A stretch of DNA of 17,585 bases from an uncultured Lactobacillus sp. (GTDB lineage Bacteria > Bacillota > Bacilli > Lactobacillales > Lactobacillaceae), in the NCBI GenBank assembly GCA_945281075.1, contig CALYQE010000030.1, forward strand, positions 1 through 17,585. Reading direction: 5' to 3'. Both the position numbers and the translations under genes were made by a program. Shown in pieces: positions 1 to 17,585 of the stretch. The notes beneath the pieces are model-generated. The model ran no database searches, was not told the DNA's origin, and was given only the letters and a program-made list of their open reading frames with translations. Every line of letters starts with the position of its first letter. The first letter of the stretch is position 1.

Positions 1-217
1 TTTGTCATTCACGTCAGCTTACTGTCTGCATATTTGGTGGACGAAATTAAAACAAATAATTTAACTAGATAAACAATTTTGATTAGATAAGAAGTGTTTA
101 AATTCCAAAATTAAGTTCCTAAATACTATTATTTGTCATACATTTAACAAATTCCTATCTTTTGTATTTGATAGAAATTCAATGGAAGTTAAAAGATTCT
201 TGTCTGAACTATGATAT

Positions 218-248
218 AAACCTCGAAGTTAGAACGACTTCGAGGTTT
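218..248 (+). promoter_or_regulatory. Hairpin upstream of the transposase remnant
   Basis: A perfect 12-base stem (218-229 with 237-248) encloses a 7-base loop and ends 5 bases before the OrfA ATG at 254. It is followed by only one further T, so it is a weak terminator at best. Hairpins just upstream of transposase genes often limit expression driven from outside promoters; that role is inferred here. Confidence 0.45.
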
Positions 249-253
249 TCATT

Positions 254-1009: not shown

Positions 1010-1097
1010 AAATTTATTAAACTATCTTAATTTTGGGGTTTAACATCAATCTTTAGTTGAGAGTCCTTTTATTGGCTTACTTATTTATTTTTATAAT

Positions 1098-1994
1098 TTA
1101 AAAGAATTCTCGACGATAATACGCATATGATTTGTGAATTACTTTTAATAATTTTTCTAAATCAATATTATATTTTAAAGTATCCAAATATCCTATTCCG
1201 AATGTAGTAGATACATCTGTGTTCAAGGGAATATACTGCAAACTCTTATCTGTTTTATCAAGTCCATATTCAGGTAAAATTCCAAATTTATTCTCTGATT
1301 TAATAAATAAGGTCATTATCATCATATCATCAGCATATTCAATATTTTTGCTGCCAATTTCATCAATAATCTTATCATGTAAATGTTGTTCAGTCGGGAG
1401 GTAATGACGAATATTTCCTAAGATTAAATCCTTATTTCTTAAGTCTTTTATTTCAATTTTGTTATAATCTTTGAAAATACTATTTGGATTAGTAACTAAA
1501 TAATATTTGCTCTTCAGAAGCGGATAAAATTCTATATGTTTATTTTCTTTAAAGCAATCTCTTTCTCCAAAAACTAAGCTTGAATTACCATGAATCAACC
1601 CATTTAAAGTATCATCAAGAAAAACTTCCTTAACATTAATTTCCCAGTTAGGATAGCATTTAATAATATTTTTTATTAAAATTGGCATAAAAATTTTGTC
1701 GGCATAAGTATTCAAATAGCCTATAGTAAATCCCTTGGTTTTCTTTTTTAAATTAAAAATAGCTAAATCAATTGAATGTACAACATTTTTAGCAATCCCG
1801 AAAAAATATCTTCCCTCTGGAGTAAGTCTTACACTTCTGGTTGTTCTTTGAAATAAACGACATTCTAAATAATTTTCTAATTCCCTTATTCTTTTTGACA
1901 CTGTAGATTGAGACATATTCAGCTTGTTTGCTGAAACAGTAAAACTACAAGTATTGGCTACTGTTAAAAATATTCTAAGTTGTTCTATGTCCAT
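1098..1994 (-). CDS. LysR-family transcriptional regulator
   Basis: A LysR-type regulator of about 298 residues, normal for the family. Residues 1-60 form the winged HTH (MDIEQLRIFLTVANTCSFT..., then SQSTVSKRIRELE and LFQRTTRSVRLTPEG). The rest is the periplasmic-binding-like effector domain. Two ATGs lie in tandem. AAAGGA sits 4 bases before the first (1995-1997) but 7 before the second (1992-1994), so I prefer the second, which also gives the usual MDxxQLxxF opening. The gene faces the MFS/flavoprotein operon across a 104-base gap containing two palindromes, the classic layout for an LTTR that controls the divergent operon in response to its substrate. The effector cannot be read from sequence. 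Confidence 0.9.
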   Translation of the reverse strand: MDIEQLRIFLTVANTCSFTVSANKLNMSQSTVSKRIRELENYLECRLFQRTTRSVRLTPEGRYFFGIAKNVVHSIDLAIFNLKKKTKGFTIGYLNTYADKIFMPILIKNIIKCYPNWEINVKEVFLDDTLNGLIHGNSSLVFGERDCFKENKHIEFYPLLKSKYYLVTNPNSIFKDYNKIEIKDLRNKDLILGNIRHYLPTEQHLHDKIIDEIGSKNIEYADDMMIMTLFIKSENKFGILPEYGLDKTDKSLQYIPLNTDVSTTFGIGYLDTLKYNIDLEKLLKVIHKSYAYYRREFF

Positions 1995-2018
1995 CATTTA
2001 TTCCTTTTCATGATAAGT

Positions 2019-2028
2019 TATTCGAATA
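2019..2028. promoter_or_regulatory. 10-base palindrome near the LysR start
   Basis: TATTCGAATA is a perfect palindrome 24 bases upstream of the lysR start in the divergent intergenic region. It could be an autoregulatory half of the LysR binding region, but it is short and could be chance. Confidence 0.3.
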
Positions 2029-2050
2029 CCTGTATAGAAAGGGTTTACTT

Positions 2051-2071
2051 ACATGATACATTAAATCATGT
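2051..2071. promoter_or_regulatory. Candidate LysR operator in the divergent region
   Basis: ACATGAT and ATCATGT form a perfect 7-base inverted repeat with a 7-base spacer, flanked by CTT and G-AAG that nearly extend it. It lies 28 bases before the transporter ATG and ahead of its AGGAGG site (2085-2090). LysR proteins bind interrupted dyads of this size between divergent genes. No convincing -35/-10 pair could be assigned, which fits an activator-dependent promoter but does not prove one. Confidence 0.45.
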
Positions 2072-2098
2072 GAAGTTTCTAATTAGGAGGAAAGATAA

Positions 2099-3343
2099 AT
2101 GAGTAAAAAACAAAGGATATATCCTTGGTTAGTTGCTGTTGCAATGGGTATTACTATGGCAGCAGTTGTAGATACATATTCTGGAGTAATTGGCGTATTT
2201 TTAACACCGATTGCAAAATCTATGAATGTAAAACTATCGGTAGTTTCCATTTTTTATACTGTGTTAGTAGTAGTAATGGCAGTTGTAATTCCATTTGTTG
2301 GCAAAATTATTCAAAAAATAAATTTAAGTTTGGAACTTTCAATAACTGTTATAGTGACATCATTAAGCGCAGTAATTATTGCAAATTCTAAGAGTTTATT
2401 TTTATTCTTTGTCATGGCAGCAGTTCTTGGAATTTGTATGGCGTTTGGTGGTTTAGTTGTTCAAGGAATAGTAATAAATAATTGGTTTGAAAAAAGCCGA
2501 AACTTTGCTTTTAGTTTGAGTTCTGTTATTGAAGCTATTTACATTTCTGTTATGACACCAATCACTTCTGTTTTGATTCAAAAATTTGGTTGGAAAAATT
2601 CATTTTTAATTTTAGCCCTATTAACTTTAATACTAGGAATTCCATCTGCTTTAATAGTAAAACTAAAACCAGATAAATTAGGTTTATTACCATATGGTGC
2701 AAAATCTAAAGAGAAAATTACTAAAGAAAGAAATGAAAAAATTGGTAAATCAAACAACTCAAAAGTATCCACTAAAAGTGTTGTCTTATCAGGAGCATTT
2801 TTAATAACTATTTTATTCACAATATTAGTTCAATTTTCTGGCAATATTACGCAGCTGTTTCCTACATATGGTATAGTGACGGGAATTGGCGCCACAAATG
2901 GCGCTTTAATGGCTTCTATAGTTTCTTTTGTAGGGATAATTGTCATACCATTGATTGGTTGGTCCTGTGATAAGTTTGGTCCAAATCACGCTCTTCCTTT
3001 TTGGTTAATAATTGGAATTTTATCTTATATAATTCTCTCTTTTGCAAATCAATTAAAATCAGTTCCATTATCTTTAATTGGTGCTGCACTTGTTTGTTCA
3101 GCGTATGGCTTATTTGGTTCAGGACAAGAGATATTCGCTAAATATATGTTTGAAGAAAAATTTGATCAAGGGTTTTCCCTTGTTACGTCAATTTCATATT
3201 TTGCAGGTGCTTTTATTATGCCAATTTTGAGTAAAATATATGAAATTTTTGGAACTTTTCTAGCAGTATTTGCTTTTTGCGCTTTAGCAGCAGTAATTAT
3301 GATTGTTTTAATTTTTGTTGGAAAAAAGTATAGAATGAGATAA
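2099..3343 (+). CDS. MFS transporter, oxalate/formate-antiporter-like
   Basis: A 414-residue membrane carrier with about 12 hydrophobic helices, split by a charged central loop at residues 188-226. The family is suggested by NNWFEKSRNFAFSLS (127-141), at the place of the WF-x-K-R-G-x-A motif of oxalate/formate (OFA) and monocarboxylate carriers, and by PDKLGLLPYG (191-200) at the end of helix 6, common in that group. AGGAGG lies 8 bases before the ATG. The stop is 14 bases from the flavoprotein ATG, so the two are one operon opposite the LysR gene. The likely role is import of a carboxylate-type substrate for the next enzyme, or substrate/product exchange. The substrate is not known, and the gene is strikingly AT-rich. 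Confidence 0.88.
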   Translation: MSKKQRIYPWLVAVAMGITMAAVVDTYSGVIGVFLTPIAKSMNVKLSVVSIFYTVLVVVMAVVIPFVGKIIQKINLSLELSITVIVTSLSAVIIANSKSLFLFFVMAAVLGICMAFGGLVVQGIVINNWFEKSRNFAFSLSSVIEAIYISVMTPITSVLIQKFGWKNSFLILALLTLILGIPSALIVKLKPDKLGLLPYGAKSKEKITKERNEKIGKSNNSKVSTKSVVLSGAFLITILFTILVQFSGNITQLFPTYGIVTGIGATNGALMASIVSFVGIIVIPLIGWSCDKFGPNHALPFWLIIGILSYIILSFANQLKSVPLSLIGAALVCSAYGLFGSGQEIFAKYMFEEKFDQGFSLVTSISYFAGAFIMPILSKIYEIFGTFLAVFAFCALAAVIMIVLIFVGKKYRMR

Positions 3344-3357
3344 TTTGAGGAAGAAAT

Positions 3358-4824
3358 ATGAATAATGAATACGATGTTGTAATAGTTGGTGCAGGATTGG
3401 CTGGTTTTTCGGCAGCTGTTGAAGCTGCTGATTCAGGATTAAAAACTCTAGTGTTAGAAAAAGGTAAAACAACTGGTGGATCGGGAAATTATGTCGAAGG
3501 AGTTTTCGCAGCTGATTCTTCCTTGCAAAAAAAACAGAATATAAGTATTGATAAAAATAAAGTTTTGAAAGAAGAAATGAACTACTCCCATTATCAAGCT
3601 AATCACGATATGTGGAAAAAGTACATAAAAGAGTCCGCTGAAAATATATCTTGGCTTCAAAAACACGGGGTAAAGTTTAGTGAAGTGGCCAGTTTAGGTA
3701 CAGGACTGGATACCTGGCATTTATTTGAAGGCCTTGGATACAATGCAATTCATATGGGACTTGAACCATACATTAAAGTTAAAGGTATAGAAATAAAGAC
3801 GCAAGTAAAAGCTGAAAGTGTATATAAAATTTCTAATCAAGATTTTGAAATTAAAGTGGTTAATTCAAAAGATAATTCTACGGAAAAGGTTTTGACTAGA
3901 AATTTGATTTTAGCAACTGGTGGATATCTTAATAATGAAAAATTACTTAAGGAGACAACTTTTACTGAAAAAAATAAGATATTACCAATGAACTCAGGTA
4001 AAAGTACAGGAGATGGATTAAAAATTGCATGGTCATTAGGCGCACAAAAGTATTTTACTGGAATGAAAATGAGATTTGGAGCTCAGTTAAAAGATGAAAA
4101 TATTCCCCCATACAAACTATGGGAATCAAATTTAGGTGGTTTAGTAGTATCCGCACAGCCTTGCCTTTGGGTAAACGAGCAAGGAGACCGATTTATTGAT
4201 GAAAATCATGCGGTTGATGATTGGTCATGTCAAGGTAACGCAATCAATCGCCAAGACAAAGTATTTGTTATTTTAGATCAAAAACTAATTGATTATTTAA
4301 CTGATACTTCAATAATCAAGGACATGCATCCTTTTTATAAAGCCACCACAATTCCTAACCTAAGAAAAGAAATCGATGATTACGTAAATAATAAAAATGA
4401 ATTTATTAACGTAGCAAATTCGATTAAAGATCTACAAAATATTATCAATACTCCACATCTTATTAAAACAGTAAATCGTTATAACCAGCTAGTAAAGCAA
4501 AAGAAAGATTTCGATTTTGGCAAACCAAAGAAATACATGATTTCAATTGATAGTGGCCCTTTTTATGCTATTGAAGTTGGATGTGGTGCATATACAACTG
4601 GAGATGGCTTAAAGGTTAATATCGATAATCAAGTATTAGATCAAGAAGGAAAAAAAATTAAGGGTCTTTATGCAATCGGCAGTGATGGATCTGGAATAAT
4701 GTATGGTGATACTTACGCTGTAGAGGTTCCAGGTAGTCATGCTGGGTACTGTGTTTTTTCTGGAAGAAATGCGATAATTTCAATTAAAAAAAGTTTAATT
4801 AAAATAGTAACAAATGAAAACTGA
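3358..4824 (+). CDS. FAD-dependent fumarate reductase/flavocytochrome c family enzyme
   Basis: A 488-residue soluble flavoprotein of the FAD_binding_2 family, without signal peptide or membrane helix. The dinucleotide-binding motif is GAGLAG (11-16), with the FAD-ribose acid in VLEKG (32-36) and GGSGN after it. ILATGGY (184-190), NEQGDRFIDE (273-282), a GCGAYTTGDGLKVN stretch and a C-terminal GLYAIGSDGSG are conserved landmarks of fumarate/urocanate reductases and ketosteroid dehydrogenases. It has no FMN_bind or NADH-flavin reductase domain, so its electrons must come from a separate partner or from substrate oxidation. GAGG lies about 7 bases before the ATG. Co-transcription with the carrier suggests reduction of an imported alpha,beta-unsaturated acid; dehydrogenation is the alternative. 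The substrate is unassigned. Confidence 0.85.
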   Translation: MNNEYDVVIVGAGLAGFSAAVEAADSGLKTLVLEKGKTTGGSGNYVEGVFAADSSLQKKQNISIDKNKVLKEEMNYSHYQANHDMWKKYIKESAENISWLQKHGVKFSEVASLGTGLDTWHLFEGLGYNAIHMGLEPYIKVKGIEIKTQVKAESVYKISNQDFEIKVVNSKDNSTEKVLTRNLILATGGYLNNEKLLKETTFTEKNKILPMNSGKSTGDGLKIAWSLGAQKYFTGMKMRFGAQLKDENIPPYKLWESNLGGLVVSAQPCLWVNEQGDRFIDENHAVDDWSCQGNAINRQDKVFVILDQKLIDYLTDTSIIKDMHPFYKATTIPNLRKEIDDYVNNKNEFINVANSIKDLQNIINTPHLIKTVNRYNQLVKQKKDFDFGKPKKYMISIDSGPFYAIEVGCGAYTTGDGLKVNIDNQVLDQEGKKIKGLYAIGSDGSGIMYGDTYAVEVPGSHAGYCVFSGRNAIISIKKSLIKIVTNEN

Positions 4825-5441
4825 GTGGTAAAAAAAGATAAAGCATTTATACTAATTCTCAAATAAAAGATGTGTAATAAATTTGTGTCGATTTTTAAAT
4901 CATATATTAATTGATATCAATTTTCTCTTCAATTTTTAATTGTTATAGTATCTTGAAAACTTTCGGATTGCTATTTCTAATTCAATTAGATTGTCAAAGC
5001 CTTGTTTAAAGTACATAGAAATTAATTGCATCAATTTTTCTAAGGAAATTTTCCATAACTATTAACTTAGGAATTTTGTATAAGTTTAACACGGACTATT
5101 TGGTTATATGATTTATATGCTAGTCTTAGAATTTTATGGAATGCTGTACTAACAGCCGTGATTTGTAAAAATTAGCCCCATATTAAAGGCCACTCTTGAG
5201 GAGTAGTGTAGTGCCTGATGCCGTTCTCTTATTTACCTGTATTTTTAAAAACATTTGAATATAATGTATAGATTTAAAATATTCTTACCATAAATAAAGA
5301 TTTCTGAAAGCAAAAAGATCAATAATATTATTTTGACCACTCAATTCTATGGCCTTAAATATTAGTTTTGCCAAAGACCAAAGTTTTCATTCCTGTTTAA
5401 TTTATATAAAGAGTTTTGAAAGAATACTATCATAGGATACA
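4825..5441. other. Intergenic stretch, no intact gene
   Basis: AT-rich sequence after the flavoprotein operon. Apart from the transposase-like scrap at 4936-5031 I find no credible coding frame, no RNA gene and no clear terminator for the plus-strand operon. The density of short stops on both strands suggests old, eroded mobile DNA. Confidence 0.6.
4936..5031 (-). pseudogene. Probable C-terminal scrap of an IS3-type transposase
   Basis: Read on the minus strand from 5031 to 4936, 31 residues stay open, including MYFKQGFDNLIELEIAIRKF followed by SRYYNN and a stop. This resembles the C-terminal OrfB pattern of IS3 elements (E-M-x-Y/F...F.....EL..AI..YI.YYNN.R). Translating past the stop gives KLKRKL, where K-x-K-L-x-G would be expected. 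Sequence further upstream is out of frame. The match is short, so the family is tentative, and no element ends were found. Confidence 0.35.
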
Positions 5442-5473
5442 AAAAACGTTGAACTTGTAGGTTCAACGTTTTT
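5442..5473 (-). terminator. Rho-independent terminator (bidirectional) after phnD
   Basis: A perfect 13-base stem (5442-5454 with 5461-5473) and 6-base loop. Read on the minus strand the stem ends in a run of T, 82 bases beyond the phnD stop. The plus-strand reading also ends in five T, so it can stop transcription from both sides. Confidence 0.85.
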
Positions 5474-5555
5474 CTATTATAAAAGGGGCAATCTTAGTTA
5501 CTCTTTTTATGTAGGATTTTAATATAATTATATTCGAGTATTAGCTTTTTTAAAG

Positions 5556-6485
5556 TTATTTTTCAACCGCTTCAGCAATTTTTTGGTATTTGCGTACAAT
5601 ATTATAATCACTGTCTTTAGCGCGAATGTATCCCTCTTGATCATAAACGCTTTCAATTACTTTTTTACCTTCTTTTGATTTGCCGATTGCAATGAATGCT
5701 TTAGCCAATTTTTCACGGAACGCTTTTGACATAGACGGCACAACAGAAATAGTGTCGTTAGGTACTGGGCGCGTAAAGTAGATTGGCACAACCTGAGATT
5801 TGATTTTGGGATTATCTTTTAAAACATTATTCCGGGCATCTTCAAAGACAAAGGCCGCATCAGTATCTTTATTTAAAACGTTGAGAACCCCTTGATCATG
5901 ACCTGTCACAGTTACCAACTTGCAGCTTTGCGGAACATTGAGTCCCTTTTTCTTTAATTCAGCAATCGGGAAAATATAACCAGTAGTTGATGTTGGTCCT
6001 TGTATGGAAATTGATTTACCCTTGAGGTCTTTCCAACTTTTAATTGGTGACCCCTTTCTTACTAAAATTTCTGAGCGAAGGGTATGAACTAACTTTTTAG
6101 TCCAAGTGCCATTTGGCGCATTTAAGCCATAACGTTCAGACTGCAAAAGAACATCTGCAGCATTTTGTTTGTGGGCCTGCACATAAGCATCGGCTGGCAG
6201 AAAACCAACATCGACTTTCTTAGACTTCATAGCTTCAATTACCGCATTATTGTCGGTCGAAACCGAAACATGAACCGGAATGCCCAGACGCTTTGACAGC
6301 ATCTTTTCAATCGGTTTAGCACGACCTTCCATTTTGTCTGCCGCTACACTCGGCACAAACTGGACGTTCAAAGACTTGGGCGTGCCGCTGTCACTTTGTT
6401 TCCTATTAGAATTTGAACATCCCGCAAGAAGTACTGTACTGACAACAGCAGTGATACCCAAAAGAAACTTATTAAAATTCTTCAT
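5556..6485 (-). CDS. phnD: Phosphonate/phosphite-type ABC substrate-binding lipoprotein
   Basis: A 309-residue type 2 periplasmic-binding-fold protein of the PhnD/PtxB family. It starts with a lipoprotein signal (MKNFNKFLLG, a hydrophobic stretch, then LLAGC with Cys23 as lipid-anchored residue), so it sits on the outer face of the membrane. Family landmarks include SLNVQFVPS near the mature start, VDVGFLPADAYVQAHK, RSEILVRKGSPIKSWKDLKGK and STTGYIFPIAELKKKG. It would capture phosphonate, phosphite or a related oxyanion for an ABC importer. GGAGG (6497-6501) is 11 bases before the ATG, rather long. No ATPase (phnC) or permease (phnE) is on either side, so it is an orphan here. Its G+C (25-26 per 60 at 6121-6240) is well above the AT-rich modules to its left. 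Confidence 0.85.
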   Translation of the reverse strand: MKNFNKFLLGITAVVSTVLLAGCSNSNRKQSDSGTPKSLNVQFVPSVAADKMEGRAKPIEKMLSKRLGIPVHVSVSTDNNAVIEAMKSKKVDVGFLPADAYVQAHKQNAADVLLQSERYGLNAPNGTWTKKLVHTLRSEILVRKGSPIKSWKDLKGKSISIQGPTSTTGYIFPIAELKKKGLNVPQSCKLVTVTGHDQGVLNVLNKDTDAAFVFEDARNNVLKDNPKIKSQVVPIYFTRPVPNDTISVVPSMSKAFREKLAKAFIAIGKSKEGKKVIESVYDQEGYIRAKDSDYNIVRKYQKIAEAVEK

Positions 6486-6924
6486 TATAATGATTACCTC
6501 CAGCCACCAGGGCGAAAAACTAGTAATTAAAAAAACTTAATAATTAAACGCAAAAGCGAAAACTGTTAAGTTGATGATTTATTTTTTAATTAAAAGTAGA
6601 GTTAACTTTCTGATGTTATAACAAGAACAAATCGGGGCTATTAAACTCGCATTAGATTTATTTGCAATATTTTTCATACCAAGTTCTCTTTTTACCTTCA
6701 TCTACTACTTTCATCTAAGAGAATAATAACAAAAAAGCACCTACTATTAAAGCTTTATATTAATTTGTTCTTTACATTTGTACTACTTGTTGACAAAAAA
6801 GGATTGCAATTTTTAAACGATAGCATTCCACTTTTGGTAATTTATTTGGTTAGTTTCATAACTTCTTATTTTGCAAACGAAAATTCAGAGCAAATTAACA
6901 AGTTTTTTACCAATTTGGTAATTT
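6486..6924. other. Intergenic stretch between phnD and the dead IIA gene
   Basis: This holds the phnD leader and probably its promoter, though no confident -35/-10 pair stands out. A 15-base palindrome with a single central base lies at 6907-6921, just after the ancestral IIA stop; it is too tight to fold as a terminator. The only longer open frame, on the plus strand from 6765, is low-complexity and runs antisense into the IIA remnant; I do not consider it a gene. Confidence 0.5.
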
Positions 6925-7398
6925 CTATTTCCCCAATTTCTGCGCTATGAACGACATTTTTTTAGTGATTTTCAAAATATGCATATCTTTGTTAAAATTA
7001 GTAAAAATTACAATTACTGTGTCATCTTTACCAGTTTTTATTACATCCTCTTGATTCATCGTTTCAGCGGCTTCTCTAGCAACAATTTTCTATTCCTTTT
7101 TTAGTCTAATGCTGAAAGGTTTTCCAGCAAGTTCTACCGTATCAATGCCTAAATGAAGCAAAACTTCGATCCCTTCCTCAGTTTTCAGGCCTACCGCATG
7201 TTTAGTCGAAAAAACAGAGGTTATTAAGCCGCTCACCTGATCATAGATGTAATCAGATGATGGTTTGACAGCAAAGCCATCTCCTAGCATTTTTTGCGAA
7301 AACATATCGTCATTAGTGTCGGTTATTTGAATTACCTGGCCATCAACAGGTGAAACAAATTCAACACATTTTGTTTTTTTCTTAAACAAATTAAACAC
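6925..7398 (-). pseudogene. PTS glucose-type IIA protein, truncated by a stop codon
   Basis: A GTG start at 7398 (GGAAG 8 bases upstream) opens a PTS EIIA type-1 domain: SPVDGQV, LGDGFAVKP, STKHAVG with His67, and the phosphorylation site EVLLHLGIDTVEL with His82. A TAG at 7090-7092 ends it after 102 residues, right after FSIRLKKE, where the family has a conserved G-D. Beyond the TAG the same frame stays open for 54 codons to a TAG at 6925-6927 and encodes the missing end (VAREAAETMNQEDVIKTGKD, then VIVIFTN). Together they give about 157 residues, a normal IIA length. The TAG therefore removes the last third of the domain. The gene lies 15 bases after the glucosidase and was once its operon partner. 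Confidence 0.75.
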
Positions 7399-7413
7399 TA
7401 TTATCTTCCAATC

Positions 7414-8888
<1,475 letters not shown>

Positions 8889-8926
8889 TTAAAATCAGCT
8901 TGTATATTTTAGCAAGGCTTCCTTGA

Positions 8927-9532
8927 TCCGTTTCAATATCTCATTATTTAGGCGAAGGTTACGAAATAGTTCTGCACAGTTTGGAAAATTACGATAAATC
9001 CATTATTGCTATCTGCAATGGTAACTTAAGAGCCCGAACAATTAGTGATCCGATTACGGAGTTAGCGCTCCACATACTCGAAAAAATTGAAGCGGGTAAA
9101 TTACCGGACAATTATATGACTTACTTTAACCGTAATTCTAAGGGTGAACCCATTAAGGGCATGACAGTAGCAATTAGCGGGAATAAAGACCGCATTATTG
9201 GCTTATTATGCATAAATTTTTATCTTAACACTCCCTTTACACGCATTATGGGAAGCTTCATTCCACAGCATAATTCTCTTCAACATACACAGGTAATTGA
9301 AAACTTTGACAATTCTACTGAAGAAGTGATTGCTGCTGCTGTAAACCGCGCACGAGCATCGGTAAATGTCGATACAACAATCAAAACTAAGAATAAAAAT
9401 AAAGAAATTATACTTAGACTTAAAAAGGAAGGAATATTTGGAATAAAAAAGGCTATTCCTGCGGTTTACAATCAGTTGAATATATCAAAAAACACGATTT
9501 ATCTTCATTTACGCAATTCAGAAAATAAATAA
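8927..9532 (+). pseudogene. YheO/DauR-type PAS-HTH regulator, 5' end lost
   Basis: The open frame gives a YheO-like PAS domain (GEGYEIVLHSLENYDKSIIA, then CNGNLRARTISDPITELALH and IIGLLCINFYLN) and the DauR-type C-terminal HTH (LKKEGIFGIKKAIPAVYNQL followed by NISKNTIYLHLR). Homology begins upstream of the only usable start, TTG 8981, which has no ribosome binding site and would cut the PAS domain in two. In frame, coding character runs back to a TGA at 8924-8926 with no ATG. The N-terminus is therefore missing or broken. A TTG-initiated 183-residue protein is the less likely alternative. It is divergent from the dead glucosidase and was probably its regulator. Confidence 0.65.
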
Positions 9533-9813
9533 ATTAAAAGCCTTTTAAGTAGTTAAGTTGGTTTAAAGCTTTAACTAAAATAATTCTATATAACTTTATT
9601 TACGATGATATAGAAGCTTAACAGTCAAATTTCTGGAAAATAAAAAATCACGCTATTCAAAGTCAATAAGTGTGATTAAACCCAATATTATTTTTACTAA
9701 AAAGAAAGCATCTTTTTTTAAAGTATAGAATACTGTAATAAAATCAGCGTTAAATTGTCATTTAAGGAAACCATATATTGTATTCTAATAACCTGCTTGG
9801 CTCCTTTACATAA
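9533..9813. other. Intergenic stretch before the second IS remnant
   Basis: AT-rich sequence with no coding frame I can support. Two weak hairpins occur, around 9649-9680 (bulged, without a T run) and 9699-9719 (short A/T stem); neither is a convincing terminator. Confidence 0.4.
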
Positions 9814-10250
9814 TGACGTACTTTATAATAGTTAGACATTAATCTAAGTATTAGAAGCCTTTTCTATGATTAAATATTCAATTGCTTTGGAAACTGAAAT
9901 TGCTTGTAAATATCTAGCAGGCCAAAACATTTGATGGGCTTAAGCAGAGAATATGGCATTAATTAGGCCAAGCTAATGCAAATGAAGATTAAACGAAGCA
10001 TACCCCTTAAGGACAACCGCAACAATAATTCTCCGAAAAAATAATTTTCAGACTATTGACTCAAGAAAAATTTAACTAACTTAAAATCAGTACACTAGCA
10101 GAAATGCAAGCAGTACTGCACAAATACGTTTAATGGTTCAACCACCTCCGAAAATCAAACAAATCAAAATACACGACTCCGATCAAATATCGGAATCGTG
10201 TATTGAGCCTTGCATGATGATAAATTGATTAACTTTTTAATTGCACTTCA
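9814..10250 (+). mobile_element. Heavily deleted IS3-family element
   Basis: Terminal repeats of 25 bases at 9814-9838 and 10226-10250 match at 16 of 25 positions, begin with TGA and share AGTTA...CA inside, as in IS3-family ends. An OrfA start at 9866 reads MIKYSIALETEIACKYLAGQ, stops, and continues one frame over as LMGLSREYGIN, the OrfA SLSREYGI motif. Near the other end, 10098-10217 reads as an OrfB C-terminus: KYV*WFNHLRK and then TTPIKYRNRVLSLA with its own stop. At 437 bases it keeps roughly a third of a full element. No target-site duplication is visible. Confidence 0.65.
10168..10204. repeat. Long hairpin inside the second IS remnant
   Basis: Two 16-base arms (10168-10183 and 10189-10204) pair with a single mismatch around a 5-base loop. 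It lies within the last codons of the decayed OrfB. No T run follows on either strand, so it is not a standard terminator. Confidence 0.6.
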
Positions 10251-10563
10251 CTAGAAAAATAGCTTAAACTATTCTTTAAAAATCAAGTTTGGCTCCCGCT
10301 TACTCAAATATTATTGGAGTATTCAACAGCTAATGCCATAATCTTAATTTATTACCATGTCTTAAAGATTATAATTAATAAAGAATATGCTCTTTTTTGG
10401 TATCAATCAAAATAAGATCTAATTTCTTTTAGCGACTTTTTCTTGAACTAAATCACCAACTAATGCTTTATTTTTCAAATGTTGAAACGTTATATCTTTA
10501 CTTCTGTTTATCAAAAAGAAGTAAATTTAATAACTCAAAATATAAGTGATTTTTACAGCCACT
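10251..10563. other. Intergenic stretch downstream of the esterase
   Basis: No intact gene. On the minus strand a 35-codon frame (10526-10419) ends in NKALVGDLVQEKVAKRN. It has protein-like composition but no start or ribosome binding site and no family I recognise; it may be a scrap of a lost gene. A perfect 9-base stem (10497-10505 with 10517-10525, loop 11) lies about 40 bases past the esterase stop, but no T run follows, so it is at best a weak terminator. Confidence 0.4.
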
Positions 10564-12078
10564 TTATAAGATAAACTTAAAGGGTGAAACAGGAAAACCT
10601 ATTTCATTATAGAGGCCAATATTCTTTGTATAATTTTCAAAGGCATAAGATATTTGCTCAGGTTTTCGCTTTAACTCTATTTTTATTTTGTTTTCACTTA
10701 AGTTGTTATTCATAATCTCAAGTGTTTGCGGTTTTCCATCAATAATCAAATTGAAGAAAACCTTTTTTGTTATTTTGAGCTTTTTACACTTAAGCGCCCA
10801 TAAAGTTAGCATATTTTTATCATAATTGTATTTATATATATACGGCGTACCGGAATATGTATTACCAGACATAATCGTTCCTAGACGTTCGCCCATTATT
10901 TTTTTGTTAAGTGGATGTATATTATGTTCTTCTCCGCCATCAATAAAGGAAACTAAATCAACATTGGTCATTTTTTCAGATACTAGCTCCTGAACTTGTC
11001 TAATTATTGCACCAGAATTTTCAGGATAATCAGCATAACCTGGTAGTTGAATTATTTTAACTGGTAAGGAAGCATCTTTCAGCTTTTTTCTCCATGTTTT
11101 AATCAATAAAGGTAGTAACTTGTGGTACTGGGAAGCACGATCAACATCATTTTCCCCTTGATACCAAATCATACCATTAAAAACGCAGTTTTTAATCTGG
11201 ATCATCATTGTTTCATATAAGCCCCCTGGTCGAGTAAATAAATCTGGACGTGCTGGCGGGGGCCATGGAGTATGGCCAACAATATTCTTTGCGTCACTCA
11301 GAGAAATAGTTGAATTATTTTTTAAAAATAGTTTCAATTCTCGATTATGCTTATCTACTTTCAAATTATATTCTTTAGTTGCAAGATCAAAATCTTCCCA
11401 ACTTTTACCTCGAATTTCATTAAAATATTTAACTAAATAAAGCTGATTAAGTTCATAATCTTTTTCCAAAGTTTTTACCTTAATCCATACACTGGCCGAG
11501 GTTCCACCTTTAAAACAGTCAATAATGGCTATCGGTTCTTTTATTCCATTCTCACGCATACTTTTCATCATATAAAAACCTATGGCGGACATCATTCCAC
11601 AATTATTGGCATTAACTTGATGCCATTTTTCTGGTTGCAAATTTTTGGGTTTTAATCTATGCGTTTTAGGATCAATATAATCAACTTGTGGGACATTGTA
11701 ATAGTACAAATCTTTTAGTTCACCATCCTGCAATTTATCTTTCATTTCAGAAAAATTTAGCTCATCCCTCAAACGAAATTCGATGTTTGATTGACCACTA
11801 AGTAAATACACTCTCCCAAATTTAATATTTGTAATGGTCTGTTTTCTCTGGGCAGAAAAAGCAGTAATTGATCCTTTCGCTTTACTATTGCTTACCGCCG
11901 GCATTCGTAATCGCCAATCACCCAGTTTATTTGATTTCGTCCTATATACTTTTTTGTTAAATATGACTTGAACCTCTTCATTAGCTTTAACATGTCCACC
12001 TAATTCTAAATTTTTGTTTAGGGGCAGAATCATATTCGATTGAAAGACATCAGCTAATATATTTTGATTAAGTTTCAT
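10564..12078 (-). CDS. SASA-family carbohydrate acetylesterase (sialate O-acetylesterase-like)
   Basis: A 504-residue cytoplasmic enzyme without signal peptide. Residues 10-85 form the N-terminal beta domain common to this family (VFQSNMILP, then GHVKANEEVQVIFN). The SGNH/SASA hydrolase core follows, with nucleophile Ser97 in LLSGQSNIEF, WYQGEND at 305-311, and the catalytic His in NIHPLNK (His388). The Asp usual two residues before that His is Asn386 here, an oddity. Such enzymes remove O-acetyl groups from sialic acids or other sugars. Its SD (AAGGTG) overlaps the stop of the PTS IIC gene 8 bases upstream, so translation is probably coupled. It should act on a sugar brought in by that PTS, more likely an acetylated glycan fragment than sialic acid, since no sialic-acid genes are present. 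Confidence 0.85.
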   Translation of the reverse strand: MKLNQNILADVFQSNMILPLNKNLELGGHVKANEEVQVIFNKKVYRTKSNKLGDWRLRMPAVSNSKAKGSITAFSAQRKQTITNIKFGRVYLLSGQSNIEFRLRDELNFSEMKDKLQDGELKDLYYYNVPQVDYIDPKTHRLKPKNLQPEKWHQVNANNCGMMSAIGFYMMKSMRENGIKEPIAIIDCFKGGTSASVWIKVKTLEKDYELNQLYLVKYFNEIRGKSWEDFDLATKEYNLKVDKHNRELKLFLKNNSTISLSDAKNIVGHTPWPPPARPDLFTRPGGLYETMMIQIKNCVFNGMIWYQGENDVDRASQYHKLLPLLIKTWRKKLKDASLPVKIIQLPGYADYPENSGAIIRQVQELVSEKMTNVDLVSFIDGGEEHNIHPLNKKIMGERLGTIMSGNTYSGTPYIYKYNYDKNMLTLWALKCKKLKITKKVFFNLIIDGKPQTLEIMNNNLSENKIKIELKRKPEQISYAFENYTKNIGLYNEIGFPVSPFKFIL

Positions 12079-12086
12079 GTTTCACC

Positions 12087-13487
12087 TTAATAATCGGTTT
12101 TATTCATTTCTTTCGCTTCAATATTATCAGCATTAATTCTATTGTCCATCTTCACGAACGGTATATATATTAGAGTCGTAACTATCAAATTTATAGCTTG
12201 AACGATTACCCCACGAAAGTTACCGGTGTAAAGTAATCCCGAAAGTAAGGTTGGAACAGTCCATGGAACATTATTCACAATTGGAGTAATAAAACCGATT
12301 TTGGTAAAGAAGTATCCGATGTAAAATGCTAATGGTTGAGCTATAACAAATGGAATGAAATAAATAGGATTTAAAACTATTGGTAATCCAAAAGTTATTG
12401 GTTCTGAAATATTAAAAATTGCTGGAAATAATGCAACTTTTGAAATCTTCTTTGTAGCAACACGTTTGGAAGCAATTAGAATTGCTAAAACCGGTGATAA
12501 TGAGAATGTACCAGCAGCAATTGACGTATAGTTCATAAACAAAGTTGAAAAAATGTGATGAGCTTGACCAAGCATATTTTGCGTATCATTTATGGTCCAA
12601 GTCATTCCAAAAATAGCTCCCCAAATTGAAGTTGGATGAATACCAAACCACTGAAGAAGACTCCAAGTAAATTGTGAAACAAAAGCAAAAGCATTTGTTT
12701 TTGAAATTGCTAATGCTGGAGCCTGAAGAACGGCTAAGAACAAAGCAGGCATAGTTTTTCCTGTTAAGGAAGTACTGATTCCAGTTAAAACTATGAAAAT
12801 GCCTAACGTAATTGAACCAGGAATCAGAGATGAAAAGCTTTGCGCCACTGCAGGCGGAACAGAATCGGGCAACTGAATTGTGAAATTTTTTTGCATTAGC
12901 TTATTATAAATCCAAACAGCACACCCGCTAATTAGGATTGCTGCAAATACGCCCTGAGTACCTAGATACTGCGTGTCAATATAGTTTAAAACATTAACTG
13001 CTTTTTTCGTATCAGGAATTGAGTATTGAAAATTCCATGGAATTGATATAAAAAATGCAGCAAGACCAAACAAAACATCAGTCATGTGCTCTACTCTGTT
13101 ATTATAAAATCTTGTTGAAACTTCCCAACTGAAAATCACTGATAAAAGCAAAGCGAAAATATTTAGAGTTCCATTCGAAACTAGCCCAATTAAATTCGCT
13201 ATTGTTTGAAGCCCCAGTTCAAATCCATTTTTTTGCCAAGCACTCCAAGAGCCGGTTAGTATCCGTCCAAGTTGAAGACCTTGTTTGCCGAAGATCAGTC
13301 CATTCACCGGATCGATAAAAACATTTTGAATCATAATGCCGAACCCAGCAATCATTGTTGTAGTTGCTACAAGAACAAACGTATCGCGTAAGGTCAACAA
13401 CAACCTATTGCCAGATATTTTTCCAGCAATTCTAATAAAATTATTTTCAAATTTTTTCAGGCCCGACGGCACAGAATTCCCAATCAT
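12087..13487 (-). CDS. PTS IIC component, lactose/cellobiose family
   Basis: A 466-residue membrane permease of the sugar phosphotransferase system, without attached IIA or IIB domains. Landmarks include PDSVPPAVAQSF, the loop LLQWFGIHPTSIWG with His284 and NISEPITFGLPIVLNP with Glu362; the corresponding His and Glu bind the sugar in the ChbC structure. A longer frame runs back to 13559, but the ATG at 13485-13487 has AAAGGAG 6 bases upstream, and the extension would cross the promoter and operator sites, so the shorter start is right. No IIA or IIB gene is in the operon; the partners must be encoded elsewhere. Family substrates are beta-linked disaccharides such as cellobiose or chitobiose. 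It is controlled by the promoter, cre box and operator sites upstream. Confidence 0.92.
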   Translation of the reverse strand: MIGNSVPSGLKKFENNFIRIAGKISGNRLLLTLRDTFVLVATTTMIAGFGIMIQNVFIDPVNGLIFGKQGLQLGRILTGSWSAWQKNGFELGLQTIANLIGLVSNGTLNIFALLLSVIFSWEVSTRFYNNRVEHMTDVLFGLAAFFISIPWNFQYSIPDTKKAVNVLNYIDTQYLGTQGVFAAILISGCAVWIYNKLMQKNFTIQLPDSVPPAVAQSFSSLIPGSITLGIFIVLTGISTSLTGKTMPALFLAVLQAPALAISKTNAFAFVSQFTWSLLQWFGIHPTSIWGAIFGMTWTINDTQNMLGQAHHIFSTLFMNYTSIAAGTFSLSPVLAILIASKRVATKKISKVALFPAIFNISEPITFGLPIVLNPIYFIPFVIAQPLAFYIGYFFTKIGFITPIVNNVPWTVPTLLSGLLYTGNFRGVIVQAINLIVTTLIYIPFVKMDNRINADNIEAKEMNKTDY

Positions 13488-13517
13488 AACTTTCTCCTTT
13501 TTATAATATATCTTTAT

Positions 13518-13531
13518 TGAAAGCGCTTTAT
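13518..13531. promoter_or_regulatory. Catabolite response element (cre) for CcpA
   Basis: TGAAAGCGCTTTAT agrees with the cre form TGAAARCGYTTTCA at 12 of 14 positions and has the central CG. It lies downstream of the -10 box and upstream of the PTS ribosome binding site, so CcpA binding would block transcription when glucose is plentiful. Confidence 0.75.
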
Positions 13532-13546
13532 TTGACGTTACAAATA

Positions 13547-13560
13547 TATGATATAACATA
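13547..13560. promoter_or_regulatory. GntR operator-like site over the -10 box
   Basis: TATGATATAACATA matches 11 of 14 positions of the perfect palindrome core TTTGATATATCAAA found before gntR, and itself contains the inverted pair ATATG/CATAT. It covers the -10 box of the PTS promoter, so a bound repressor would block RNA polymerase. Confidence 0.5.
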
Positions 13561-13575
13561 TTTTGACGGAGTCAA
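13548..13575 (-). promoter_or_regulatory. Promoter of the PTS-esterase operon
   Basis: On the minus strand TTGACT (13570-13575) and TATCAT (13548-13553) are separated by 16 bases, a good sigma-A promoter. The -35 box is half of the inverted pair TTGAC/GTCAA with a 3-base spacer (13563-13575). Transcription would start near 13541. Confidence 0.65.
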
Positions 13576-13578
13576 TAG

Positions 13579-13590
13579 TTGGTATAACAA
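13579..13590. promoter_or_regulatory. Second GntR operator-like site upstream of -35
   Basis: TTGGTATAACAA matches 10 of 12 positions of the palindrome core TTGATATATCAA before gntR. It lies just upstream of the -35 box, about 31 bases centre to centre from the site over the -10 box, or close to three helical turns. Confidence 0.45.
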
Positions 13591-13602
13591 ATACTAATAT
13601 TT

Positions 13603-14319
13603 TTAGAGGATAATTGATTCTTTTATTGGAAATCTAGTAATTCGATAGTATGTTTGATTCCATTCAAAAGGACGACCATCTTCCAAATACGAAATCTGCA
13701 GGCATTTAAGTAGTGGCTCTTGGCTCACTATTTTTTCATTCAGTTTATACGCGTCTATAAGTTCGGAACTGGCATTGATTAAAGATATAGATCGCATTGC
13801 ATTTTTAGGCTGAACACCAACCTTTTCTTTTACTAGTGGATAGATCGAGGACTCTAACATTTCCATATTTAAACCTTGAATAACTTTAGCAGGGATATAT
13901 ATCTTCTGAAAAGCAACCAATTGTTTATTAATAGTTACAGCCGCACGTTTAATAGTATACACAACATCATAAGAGTCGATTTTTAGAGCCTCATAGATTT
14001 TAGATGCTACTGGTCCTACTTCGAAATCAAGCAGATGCAGTTTATATTTTTTAAGATTAACCATTTCCAAAAGCTCAGTATTCGTAGATGACTTTGTAAA
14101 TTGGTGTTCCTTTACGTAAGTCCCAGCTCCTTGTATTCGATAAATAAGACCATCATTTTCGAGTTCCTTTAATGCATTTCGCACAGTAATTCGACTAACG
14201 TTATATGATTTAGCCAAATCCAATTCTTTAGGAAGCTGATCATTGGCCTGATACTCATCAGTTTCTATCTCGTGTCTCAGTTTTTTTGCAATTAAAAGAT
14301 ATTTAGGTGTTTCTTTCAT
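13603..14319 (-). CDS. GntR-family (HutC-type) repressor
   Basis: A regulator of 238 residues. The winged HTH covers about residues 5-70 (PKYLLIAKKLRHEIE, QLPKELDLAKSYNVSRITVR, then LENDGLIYRIQGAGTYV). The rest is a UTRA ligand-binding domain, which in this subfamily binds a sugar or sugar phosphate. An upstream in-frame TTG at 14337 would add six residues, but ATG at 14317-14319 gives the usual short arm before the HTH; neither has a strong SD. The gene is followed at 115 bases by the PTS IIC gene on the same strand. Operator-like palindromes before both genes suggest that it represses itself and the PTS-esterase operon until the phosphorylated sugar appears. Confidence 0.9.
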   Translation of the reverse strand: MKETPKYLLIAKKLRHEIETDEYQANDQLPKELDLAKSYNVSRITVRNALKELENDGLIYRIQGAGTYVKEHQFTKSSTNTELLEMVNLKKYKLHLLDFEVGPVASKIYEALKIDSYDVVYTIKRAAVTINKQLVAFQKIYIPAKVIQGLNMEMLESSIYPLVKEKVGVQPKNAMRSISLINASSELIDAYKLNEKIVSQEPLLKCLQISYLEDGRPFEWNQTYYRITRFPIKESIIL

Positions 14320-14337
14320 ATTTTCATCTCGAAGCAA

Positions 14338-14357
14338 TAATTTGATATATCAAATTA
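14338..14357. promoter_or_regulatory. 20-base perfect palindrome, likely GntR operator
   Basis: TAATTTGATATATCAAATTA is perfectly self-complementary and ends 18 bases before the gntR ATG. Short A/T-rich palindromes centred on ATAT are typical for HutC-type GntR regulators. Related copies lie in the downstream PTS promoter, so autoregulation is likely. Confidence 0.65.
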
Positions 14358-14396
14358 ATTTTACCATTATTATTATTTTGTCGTATTCTCAAAATT

Positions 14397-15242
14397 TTAT
14401 CTTAGTTTAATCACGGGAATCCAAGCCTCATCGTAACGAATCTGTGTTTTTTCATTGTCTAAAACCAGCAAAAGAGCCGTAATTATATCGCCATTTAAGA
14501 GAAATTTACGTTTTTTAAGTTCCTTTCTGACAGAATTAAACCAAATTTTTCTTTCTATGTCTTGAGCATTACCTATCAAAACAGTATGAAGACAAATTGT
14601 TGAAGGTACTTCTTCAACTCTTTCACTTACTTTCAAGCCAAATTCTTTGAAATAATTCTTCGTAATAATCATGTCCATTTCAGGCTCTATGCAGGAGTTT
14701 TTCTTTAATATATCTGCTTTTTTGTAGCGCAAAGATGCGTTTGAAATAGGTAAAAGCATATTCCATTGGCAATATTCTTCAGTTTGTTTTTCATTGCTTT
14801 GGTGTGGACCGTTCATTTCACGTAGAAATAATCTTTTAAAAATTGGCGACTTAATCAATTCAAATTTTGGTTGCTTCTTTTTGGCCATTTCTAAAAGTGC
14901 CAGATTGTGATTCATGACTTCTATAACGGCTTCTAGATGCTTTCTTTTAAATTGCAAGTTTTGTAAAAGCTCCTCATATGAATTTAAGGATTTCTCTTTA
15001 TTAGAAGAATTAAGAATCTCCAAAGTTTCACTGATATCAAAACCGGCCTGTCGTAAATATCTTGCCATAAATATGCGATAGGTTTCTTTCAAGTTAAAGC
15101 GACGCTGTTTGTTTTTGCCAACCCGCTCAGGCTTTACCAACTTTTTCTTTTCATAGTATTCAATTCCTTTAATCGAAATTCCAAAAAACTTTCCCAACTC
15201 TGAAGATGTATACTCATACGGATAATTTGTCTTTTTTTTCAA
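14397..15242 (-). CDS. MerR-family regulator with C-terminal effector domain
   Basis: A 281-residue regulator. Residues 11-75 are the MerR winged HTH (YTSSELGKFFGISIKGIEYY, EKKKLVKPER, RRFNLKETYRI). Residues 84-122 look like the dimerising coiled coil. The C-terminal half (about 140-281) resembles a GyrI-like small-molecule binding domain (PEMDMIITKNYFKEFG...VPSTICLHTVLIG, DEAWIPV), without the cysteine pattern of metal sensors. The start is TTG 15242, with AAAGGGG 9 bases upstream and no nearby ATG. It lies just downstream of the flavoprotein gene on the same strand but behind a terminator, so it is probably transcribed largely on its own. The promoter of that flavoprotein gene has MerR-target geometry, making it the obvious target. 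Confidence 0.88.
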   Translation of the reverse strand: MKKKTNYPYEYTSSELGKFFGISIKGIEYYEKKKLVKPERVGKNKQRRFNLKETYRIFMARYLRQAGFDISETLEILNSSNKEKSLNSYEELLQNLQFKRKHLEAVIEVMNHNLALLEMAKKKQPKFELIKSPIFKRLFLREMNGPHQSNEKQTEEYCQWNMLLPISNASLRYKKADILKKNSCIEPEMDMIITKNYFKEFGLKVSERVEEVPSTICLHTVLIGNAQDIERKIWFNSVRKELKKRKFLLNGDIITALLLVLDNEKTQIRYDEAWIPVIKLR

Positions 15243-15294
15243 CTTTTATTACCCCTTTGATCAAGCGATTCTCTTTATATATCAATTAAAGCAG

Positions 15295-15329
15295 AAAAAA
15301 AGACCGTGGGCCTAAAAATTTCACGGTCT
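15295..15329 (-). terminator. Terminator after the flavoprotein gene
   Basis: An 8-base stem (15301-15308 with 15322-15329, AGACCGTG/CACGGTCT) with a 13-base loop is followed on the minus strand by seven T. It lies 22 bases after the flavoprotein stop and before the MerR gene. Confidence 0.85.
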
Positions 15330-15350
15330 CTATAAAACTATTTATTATTC

Positions 15351-17372
15351 TTACTTTTTTAACTTGGAGACTGCATCTTTTGCAGCTGACCGACCAAATA
15401 CACCACAAATTAGAAGAGACATGCCATCACCATAGTAATCAATCCCCATTACTTGACCATCAGCACAAGAACCGGCTGCATATAAACCAGTAACAGGCTG
15501 GTCATCTTGATTAATTACTTGAGCATGCTCATTAATTTTTGCACCCGTATAGCCGTCAGAACAAATTTGTGGCAACCGTAACACGTAATATGGTGCAGTT
15601 ATTTTGACCATATTATTAGGGTTTTTATGAAAATCTTTGTCTTCCCCCTTGTCGCATAGCATATTATACCTATCAATTGTCTTCTTAAGGTTACTTGGGT
15701 TAATTCCAACATCCTGAGCCAATTTTTCAATACTTTCTTCTTTGTAACCAAAATTTTTATTGTGAGCAGTTCTCTTGGTCAAGCCCAATTCTGTCATAAT
15801 TGGATATTTTTCTGCCGTTTTTTGCCCATAAACTGCATAACCTTCATCGTATCCGTTATACCAGCAGCGTTTGGTAAATTCAAAGGTAAAATCATCTTCT
15901 GATGCTAATCGGTTTCCACCACCATCAACCGAAAGAACATCATAATTAGGCAAAGTTGGTGATTCTGGTATAGCTTCTGGAAACTTATCACCAAATGACT
16001 TTCCATAAAAGTAATACATGAATTGCAGATAAGGAACCTCAATAATTTTTGCATTAACCTGATTGAAAAACTTAAATGCTGAACCATTTCCGTTTCCAAC
16101 TCTTACCTCAATATTGGTCATCTTCGGGTTTAATTTTTTAATCAAGCCAAGATTTGCAGTGTAAGATCCAACACATACAATCACGGCAGATGCACGTATT
16201 GTAAGCTCATCACCATTTACAGTTGTAGCTTTAACACCTTTAACCACACCATTATCAACAATTAGCTCATCAACCTTAGTACCGAGTCGTAAGTCAACTC
16301 CTTTTTTTTGGGCAGAATTTACTAAAACTGTCATCAAAGTTGTACCCATACCCTTAATAGTATGAGCCCGCTTAGTCAATCGAGGCTTTTTTGGCGAAAT
16401 GTTAACTACTTTATCCCAAGTTAATCCTTGATCTTCCAAAAACTTAATGTAACTCGCCGACTCATTTGCTAATTTACGTAAAAGTTTCGGTTCTATGTTT
16501 GGCTCATCACCATAGACTTCCATCAAATCGTCATAAAAATCGTCAGTATTATCTTTAATTCCACGACGTTTTTGTTCGTCAGTATTTGCACCCATTACGA
16601 AGCCCTGAGCACGTGAAGTTGAACTGCTATAAGTTTGTCCTGCTTCGAGCAGCATCACCTTAGCACCATCTTCAGCAGCTTCTAATGCAGCACTAAAGCC
16701 AGCTAAGCCTGCACCAATTGCGATTATATCAGTGCTCAATTCTTCGTGTTTTGGAGTTGGCTTGACAATAGGACGGTTTGCAAAAGCAGTTGGATTGCCA
16801 CCAGCCTTATCTATTGCTTTTTCTACGCCCGAAAGATAAGCATTTGAAGAGATAGTAGCACTCGTGATTGCATCAACCGAAGTTGACTGGCTTTTAATAA
16901 TTTCTTTTTTTAATATATCGAAAGCCATACCACCAATAACTGGTGTATCAGTGTATTTTGGTACACTTATATCTTTAATTTGATTGTCTTTAAAAGTGAC
17001 TTTTATTAATGCTTTTCCAGAACCTGGAAGACCTTGATTTTCAACAAAAGAAGTTACTGTAATAGAATACGTTCCATCATTCACATTTGTCTCAGTACTC
17101 TTCTTAACTCCCTTAGACTGATTTTCGATGTCCTTTAAAGCATCGTTAAAACCCTTAGATGTCCTTGAAGCACCTGAAACTGCATCAACGTGAAATTTTT
17201 TGGTTTGATTTGCTTCTTCAACCAACTTTGGTAAAGCAGTTTCACCAATTTCCTTTGTATCATTACTTGAAACAACTTCCACATTGGTAATTTTTTTATC
17301 CTCAACCTTACCTTTTACAACAATTTCGCTTTTAAAACCCTTGCCTTTACCTGTAAAAAATTTTTTTCTCAT
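15351..17372 (-). CDS. Fumarate reductase-like flavoprotein with two FMN_bind domains
   Basis: A 673-residue soluble enzyme without signal peptide or haem motifs, so cytoplasmic. Two FMN_bind domains come first (about 8-85 and 98-190), with the flavinylation motifs DAVSGAS (63-69) and DAITSAT (167-173); ApbE-type transferases attach FMN to the last Ser/Thr of such motifs. The FAD domain follows: GAGLAG (220-225), LLEAG (241-245), VIVCVGSY, GGGNRLASED (484-493), GYTGAKIN (608-614) and GLYAAGSCADG (629-639). This matches fumarate, urocanate and phenylacrylate-type reductases in which covalent FMN passes electrons to FAD and then to a C=C bond. There is no NADH-oxidising domain and no apbE in the window. 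AAGGAG is 9 bases before the ATG. The exact acceptor is unknown. Confidence 0.9.
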   Translation of the reverse strand: MRKKFFTGKGKGFKSEIVVKGKVEDKKITNVEVVSSNDTKEIGETALPKLVEEANQTKKFHVDAVSGASRTSKGFNDALKDIENQSKGVKKSTETNVNDGTYSITVTSFVENQGLPGSGKALIKVTFKDNQIKDISVPKYTDTPVIGGMAFDILKKEIIKSQSTSVDAITSATISSNAYLSGVEKAIDKAGGNPTAFANRPIVKPTPKHEELSTDIIAIGAGLAGFSAALEAAEDGAKVMLLEAGQTYSSSTSRAQGFVMGANTDEQKRRGIKDNTDDFYDDLMEVYGDEPNIEPKLLRKLANESASYIKFLEDQGLTWDKVVNISPKKPRLTKRAHTIKGMGTTLMTVLVNSAQKKGVDLRLGTKVDELIVDNGVVKGVKATTVNGDELTIRASAVIVCVGSYTANLGLIKKLNPKMTNIEVRVGNGNGSAFKFFNQVNAKIIEVPYLQFMYYFYGKSFGDKFPEAIPESPTLPNYDVLSVDGGGNRLASEDDFTFEFTKRCWYNGYDEGYAVYGQKTAEKYPIMTELGLTKRTAHNKNFGYKEESIEKLAQDVGINPSNLKKTIDRYNMLCDKGEDKDFHKNPNNMVKITAPYYVLRLPQICSDGYTGAKINEHAQVINQDDQPVTGLYAAGSCADGQVMGIDYYGDGMSLLICGVFGRSAAKDAVSKLKK

Positions 17373-17411
17373 TTTAATAATCTCCTTTTTAATAAATCGC
17401 TTACATCATTA

Positions 17412-17442
17412 ATTTTAATTGATGAAGTTACTTCATCGTCAA
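17412..17442 (-). promoter_or_regulatory. MerR-type promoter of the flavoprotein gene
   Basis: On the minus strand TTGACG (17437-17442) and TAAAAT (17412-17417) are 19 bases apart, longer than the optimal 17. The spacer region holds a perfect 17-base dyad, GATGAAGT-T-ACTTCATC (17421-17437). An overlong spacer with a dyad inside it is the hallmark of promoters activated by MerR proteins, which untwist the DNA. Confidence 0.75.
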
Positions 17443-17477
17443 GGAGAAACGTGAAAATAATCACTAATTCCCTAATC

Positions 17478-17510
17478 AAAAAGACTCCCATCATTATTGA
17501 TAGGAGTCTT
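17478..17510 (-). terminator. Terminator of the gene at the right edge
   Basis: An 8-base stem (17481-17488 with 17503-17510) continues after one mismatch with ATCA/TGAT around a 4-base loop. The minus-strand reading ends in five T. It lies about 20 bases after the stop of the partial gene and ahead of the flavoprotein promoter. Confidence 0.85.
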
Positions 17511-17530
17511 AATTAATATATAAATCAAAT

Positions 17531-17585
17531 TTATTTCATTTGTTCTTGAACTTCAGCAGCAAAGTCTTCTTGCTTCTTTTCAATA
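17531..17585 (-). CDS. 3' end of an unidentified gene (partial)
   Basis: The minus-strand frame entering at the window edge encodes IEKKQEDFAAEVQEQMK and then TAA. A proper terminator follows, so it is a real gene end. The charged, helical tail is not enough to name a family. Confidence 0.6.
   Translation of the reverse strand, partial: IEKKQEDFAAEVQEQMK

Follow-up and report, generated by a model that had tools for sequence, protein, structure and literature searches.

A candidate MerR-type operator-promoter in front of a flavin reductase gene of lactobacilli

Regulators of the MerR family activate promoters whose -35 and -10 hexamers lie 19 or 20 base pairs (bp) apart: such spacers were present in 28 of the 28 promoters surveyed in PMC7722741, and PMC9909328 (a review) and PMC8113463 (on EcmrR) likewise give 19-20 bp. 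In the structure of Bacillus subtilis BmrR the operator is centred at -24 and the wing contacts positions -34 to -32 (PMC7722741), and E. coli EcmrR activates a promoter with a 19-bp spacer (PMC8113463). The flavin reductase systems HcrAB/HcrR and VprA/VprR of L. plantarum are switched on by dedicated regulators (PMC10295242), but HcrR and VprR are LysR-type, and the term MerR is absent from the main text of that review; among the hits listed from the open-licence PMC literature, nothing pertinent to a MerR-controlled flavin reductase in lactobacilli was found. The present work concerns a contig of an uncultured Lactobacillus sp. (CALYQE010000030.1 of assembly GCA_945281075.1, positions 1 to 17,585 of the forward strand; the window), in which a promoter with a dyad in its spacer precedes a flavin reductase gene that is followed by a gene for a MerR-family protein. 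Comparison strongly supports a MerR-type reading of this promoter.

On the minus strand, from 17442 to 17412, the promoter reads TTGACG-ATGAAGTAACTTCATCAAT-TAAAAT, that is 6+19+6, with the -35 hexamer at 17437..17442 and the -10 hexamer at 17412..17417, the same two hexamers and the same distance as given in the first-pass annotation. The candidate operator, GATGAAGT-A-ACTTCATC (17421..17437, minus strand), is a perfect 8+1+8 dyad, and when the -10 hexamer is set at -12 to -7, it spans -32 to -16 and is centred at -24, at spacer position 8.0. The annotation had placed a 17-base dyad within the spacer; the dyad itself was recovered, but it does not lie wholly inside, since the G that opens it also closes the -35 hexamer, an overlap of one base. 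No other perfect 8+1+8 dyad is present in the window, but the dyad by itself proves nothing; it is unremarkable, because Markov-shuffled windows (200 shuffles) contain 0.845 perfect 8+1+8 dyads on average. When the hexamers (each with at most 1 mismatch), a spacer of 19 or 20 bp and a dyad with 7-base arms and its centre at spacer position 7-9.5 were demanded together, 1 site was found in the window versus 0.01 expected per shuffled window, which agrees with the MerR-type geometry proposed before.

The reductase (15351..17372, minus strand) has 673 amino acids (aa), with two FMN_bind stretches and a FAD_binding_2 domain; its start codon is located 39 nucleotides (nt) past the -10 hexamer and is preceded by an AAGGAG ribosome site. 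An intrinsic terminator at about 15295..15328 (minus strand, limits counted by hand) lies between the reductase and the MerR gene (14397..15242, minus strand), which encodes a BmrR-like protein of 281 aa with a TTG start; the three features are as the annotation had described them. The N-terminal winged helix-turn-helix (HTH) matches PF13411 at 34.7 bits (cut-off 21.6), as do 19 of 19 homologues. In structural alignments, at 11-15% identity, the predicted model of the protein matches BmrR over the full length, including the GyrI-like ligand domain, so that the long dimerisation helix followed by a GyrI-like domain, the BmrR-type arrangement, appears to be present and the small-molecule-type C-terminal domain suggested earlier is borne out by the model. 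EcmrR, which also has a GyrI-like ligand domain, is among the fold matches listed. The locus resembles the bmr promoter in the regulator fold, the 19-bp spacer and the operator centre; it differs in its target, a flavin reductase in place of an efflux pump, and in that the MerR gene lies behind this target. An own promoter of the MerR gene was sought by eye and none was established. Searched against GTDB contigs, the MerR protein gave a single weak match (31% over the HTH part), and against plasmids no match.

The same order, reductase and then MerR, with a hairpin and a T run between the two genes, was found at seven loci of three genera: the window, C93 of the same assembly, and the genomes G038, G065, G335, G111 and G344. 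In front of all seven reductases stands TTGACGRTGAAnnnACTTCATCA with a -10 hexamer at 19 bp, the invariant letters being TTGACG.TGAA...ACTTCATCA..TA...T. The -35 hexamer TTGACG is the same at 7/7 loci and the spacer is constantly 19 bp, while the -10 hexamer varies within TAnnnT (TAAAAT, TATACT, TATAAT, TATGAT). The promoter of G111 is TTGACG-ATGAACCAACTTCATCACC-TATAAT, that of G335 has the spacer of G111 with TATACT, and that of G344 is TTGACG-GTGAACCTACTTCATCAGT-TATGAT. The outer dyad arms are conserved bar one position in G344. Upstream of the promoters, 100 nt show 25-46% identity without gaps, with 93% between G038 and G065 over the nearest 30 nt. The palindrome near -24 is imperfect at 3 of the seven loci: the exact dyad was detected in G000, G038 and G065, and a less perfect form in G335, G111 and G344. 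None of the seven orthologous promoters beside this MerR has the 17-bp spacer without a dyad that would have told against the annotation, and its link of the promoter to the adjacent MerR is supported, the element being present at 7/7 loci found with both genes.

Within the source assembly the exact dyad is present at 2 places, the window site and C93:155-171, and a third, dyad-like place with 2 mismatches is inside a coding frame. The C93 dyad precedes a second copy of the pair, with the gene order unchanged (reductase 78%, MerR 90%). The C93 locus (L055) is colinear with the window for reductase, MerR, GntR and PTS (phosphotransferase system) genes, at 84.7% identity over 7 kb, and again lies after the same gene end. 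That gene end (17531..17585, minus strand) is probably the 3' end of tsf, for elongation factor Ts: its last 17 residues match the end of an open reading frame (ORF) in G065 at 16/17, an ORF which we take to be tsf. If the gene is indeed tsf, which is normally single-copy, C93 is probably no duplication but the corresponding locus of a second strain or species represented in the bin.

The distribution of the element was followed in two sets of genomes. In 75 genomes of the genus, where up to 15 best candidate reductases per genome, chosen by a first look, were scored, reductases at E <= 1e-100 were obtained in G000, G038, G065 and G054 and full-length MerRs of at least 54% identity in G000, G038, G065 and G008; the dyad with at most 1 mismatch was present in 8/75 genomes, and all 7 one-mismatch places are inside coding frames. 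In a family sample of 397 genomes (up to 3 best candidates each, likewise by first look) reductases at E <= 1e-150 were confined to G000, G111, G335 and G344, and at E <= 1e-15 the MerR profile matched in these four genomes and on a C-terminal fragment in G101. The reductase was detected in 2/21 genomes of the genus of G335 (G335 and G111 only) and in 1/15 of that of G344 (G344 only). The pattern TTGACGRTGAANNNACTTCATCA has five perfect matches, spread over 4/397 genomes, and these are the genomes with the reductase and the full-length MerR; the element is thus present in 4/4 genomes with both genes and in 0/393 without. A first family pattern with the -10 TTAAAAT missed G335, G111 and G344, because their -10 hexamers differ.

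When 2 mismatches were allowed, 42/397 genomes matched, and outside the own operators of the four genomes all places had 2 mismatches. These near matches exceed a reversed control pattern (13/397 genomes), and the excess is largely due to two recurrent sequences, one in 13 genomes and the other in 5. Fourteen near matches were inspected (L092-L101, L103-L106): five (L095-L099) and four (L103-L106) lie in no frame of at least 100 aa, the other five within coding frames. In the printed sequence of the 9 non-coding ones a TAnnnT hexamer 19 bp on was found in none. The sequence TTGACGATTAAGATACTTCTTCA recurs in 13/397 family genomes, and its four copies that were read (L103-L106) are outside frames of at least 100 aa; it is perhaps a mobile element.

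Three genomes are each without one partner, and each is also without the element. G054 has a reductase of 47% identity and no MerR match, either genome-wide or around the reductase gene; within 500 nt upstream the closest approach to the element still has 9 mismatches, and the candidate promoter picked there by eye is TTGCAT-17 bp-TATCAT. In G101 the C-terminal MerR part only (the ligand domain without HTH, L102:5341-5751) stands behind a different FMN/FAD reductase of 592 aa, and the best element match in 11 kb has 5 mismatches. G008, L. colini, carries a 54% MerR (L060:7606-8412) next to a gene that is presumably transposase-like.

Taking the promoter, the loci and the predicted fold together, we consider it very probable that the promoter and its dyad form the operator-promoter of a MerR-type switch worked by the downstream MerR. 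Several observations weigh against this. In L. colini, the 16 kb that were read show no trace of a reductase and the genome has no dyad at <= 1 mismatch, hence this MerR can exist without the reductase promoter as target. Pfam recognised a ligand domain in 0/19 MerR homologues. Two inner bases of one dyad half differ in G335, G111 and G344, and G344 has a further mismatch in the outer part; therefore the window shows, in perfect form, a dyad that is less perfect elsewhere, and of which GRTGAA-N5-TTCATC persists. The seven loci are a small sample that includes close relatives such as G038 and G065, and since the family pattern was derived from them, its absence in the 393 other genomes is the informative part.

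Other explanations must be set against the same data. Some other MerR protein of the cell might control the promoter, with the adjacent gene regulating something else. MerR genes are common (at E <= 0.001 some match is present in 55/75 genomes of the genus), and in the Lactobacillus genome G043 a different MerR adjoins a promoter of the same geometry, TTGACTATAAAGTTACTTTACAGTTTAAAAT (L073:5900-5930), with the same dyad centre and the 19-bp spacer; that locus differs from the window in its divergent arrangement, in its distant MerR (25%) and in its target, a 106-aa gene which we take to be SMR-like. However, the element tracks this MerR and this reductase through the family sample and adjoins both genes at every one of the seven loci, which makes control from elsewhere improbable. 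Equally improbable, in our estimation, is a classical repressor operator that acts by steric block, the 19-bp spacing being incidental. Dyads between the hexamers can serve repressors, and a cre-like element close to the start site hints at regulation of another sort; but steric block would not need a spacer that stays at 19 bp while the -10 hexamer changes, and the regulator linked to the promoter is a MerR-family protein. A fortuitous dyad in an AT-rich intergenic region, with the start site elsewhere, could draw on the roughly 0.8 perfect dyads per shuffled window, but the full combination is a hundredth of a site per shuffled window and the element is conserved in three genera while its flanks are not, so chance is the least credible of the three. 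Both the chance and the other-regulator readings look unlikely.

The operation of a switch worked by the downstream MerR may be pictured as follows. A BmrR-like dimer with its GyrI-like ligand domains would occupy the dyad between the hexamers, and sigma-A holoenzyme would poorly engage both hexamers across the 19-bp spacer, leaving the promoter nearly silent. With a small molecule bound to the MerR, the spacer would be kinked and untwisted and transcription of the reductase would begin. The MerR gene, behind the terminator, would probably be expressed at a low level, from an own promoter or by read-through, and the inducer is perhaps the electrophilic substrate of the reductase itself. What the analysis shows is the geometry, the conservation, the co-occurrence and the predicted fold; the binding, the activation by distortion and the inducer are inferred. 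The switch belongs to a known MerR kind; the unusual point is its target, a flavin reductase.

The first-pass annotation had guessed an unsaturated acid as the substrate of a cytoplasmic reductase. No signal peptide is apparent at the N-terminus, judged by eye only, which fits the location. The substrate guess was not supported, because the acid-handling residues of flavocytochrome c3 fumarate reductase (Fcc3) and urocanate reductase (UrdA), whose roles are described in PMC10882135, were not found at the aligned positions. The Arg acid (Arg402 of Fcc3, Arg411 of UrdA) aligns with Thr496, with no Arg in this column among 12 homologues. The His and Arg that bind the carboxylate (His520 and Arg560 in UrdA numbers, which we equated with those of Fcc3 ourselves) are likewise missing, since the Fcc3 motifs HHTMGG and NRLGG align with SDGYTG and DYYGDG. 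The YYGDG of the reductase aligns with YPGAG of the ketosteroid dehydrogenase 7p18 (YxGxG motif), the C-terminal Tyr487 and Gly491 of 3-ketosteroid dehydrogenase (role in PMC5348764) have their equivalents, and Y646, G648 and G650 are invariant across 23 homologues. We do not claim membership of this family, of which Tyr119 and Tyr318 are further marks; the comparison covered the C-terminal motif. SGAS in the first FMN_bind stretch fits the [S/T]GA[S/T] motif of proteins flavinylated by ApbE (PMC8238504) and is a putative site; the second stretch has TSAT. Fold searches cannot reveal the substrate. As a candidate identity, the vinyl phenol reductase VprA (NF053717) was rejected, with 174.2 bits against a cut-off of 600, and in the parts used the ferulate reductase paper PMC13101492 and the review PMC10295242 offered no connection to this reductase. 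The source assembly holds 44 match segments to the reductase, of which several can share one gene; judged from these, one lactobacillus has a large set of related flavin reductases.

Further control of the promoter is suggested by two more sites. A cre-like (CcpA) element, TGTAAGCGATTTAT (17392..17405, minus strand), lies 6 nt past the -10 hexamer with 2 mismatches to the consensus TGWAANCGNTNWCA (PMC5986886). Such an element is found 5-6 nt past the -10 at 5/7 loci (0 mismatches in G344, 2 each in the window, C93, G335 and G111), and the closest candidates in G065 and G038 have 3 and 4 mismatches; at most 2 mismatches arose within 60 nt of shuffled sequence in 1.8-3.9% of trials per locus (2000 trials each). 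The palindrome GTGATTATTTTCAC (17451..17464, minus strand), which we take to be of the Crp/Fnr type, lies 8 nt upstream of the -35 hexamer. GTGAN6TCAC keeps this distance of exactly 8 nt at three of the seven loci (the window, G038 and G065) and is absent there from the remaining four; within 120 nt of shuffled sequence the palindrome appeared in 0-0.25% of trials (2000 each). The two sites suggest possible catabolite repression and a Crp/Fnr-type input. It can be proposed, tentatively and with more doubt than confidence, that a two-gene cassette has spread among lactobacilli genera. Its BmrR-like sensor would govern a flavin reductase acting on an enone- or quinone-like compound, either to disarm or to respire it; this substrate would itself be the inducer, and carbon and redox control would be added at the promoter through catabolite repression and a Crp/Fnr-type factor.

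Elsewhere in the window, a terminator-like hairpin (17481..17510, minus strand) separates the preceding gene from the reductase promoter. The region 1098-4824 holds a LysR regulator, an MFS transporter and a VprA (NF053717, 610.2 bits, cut-off 600), likely a vinylphenol-reducing set with its own LysR. Short ORFs at 7471-7797 and 8625-8876, near a PTS IIA-like ORF (7090-7398), resemble pieces of one broken gene, presumably a family 1 glycosidase.

The BmrR-like class is known mainly for drug efflux; here, if the reading is true, it would control a flavin reductase. The genomes of lactobacilli can hold numerous flavin reductases whose substrates are unknown, and an enzyme of this sort that is coupled to a dedicated ligand sensor would offer a route to the substrate, since a compound that opens the promoter would be a candidate. 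The operator could serve as a reporter, with a natural contrast in the G054 homologue, which has neither the MerR nor the element.
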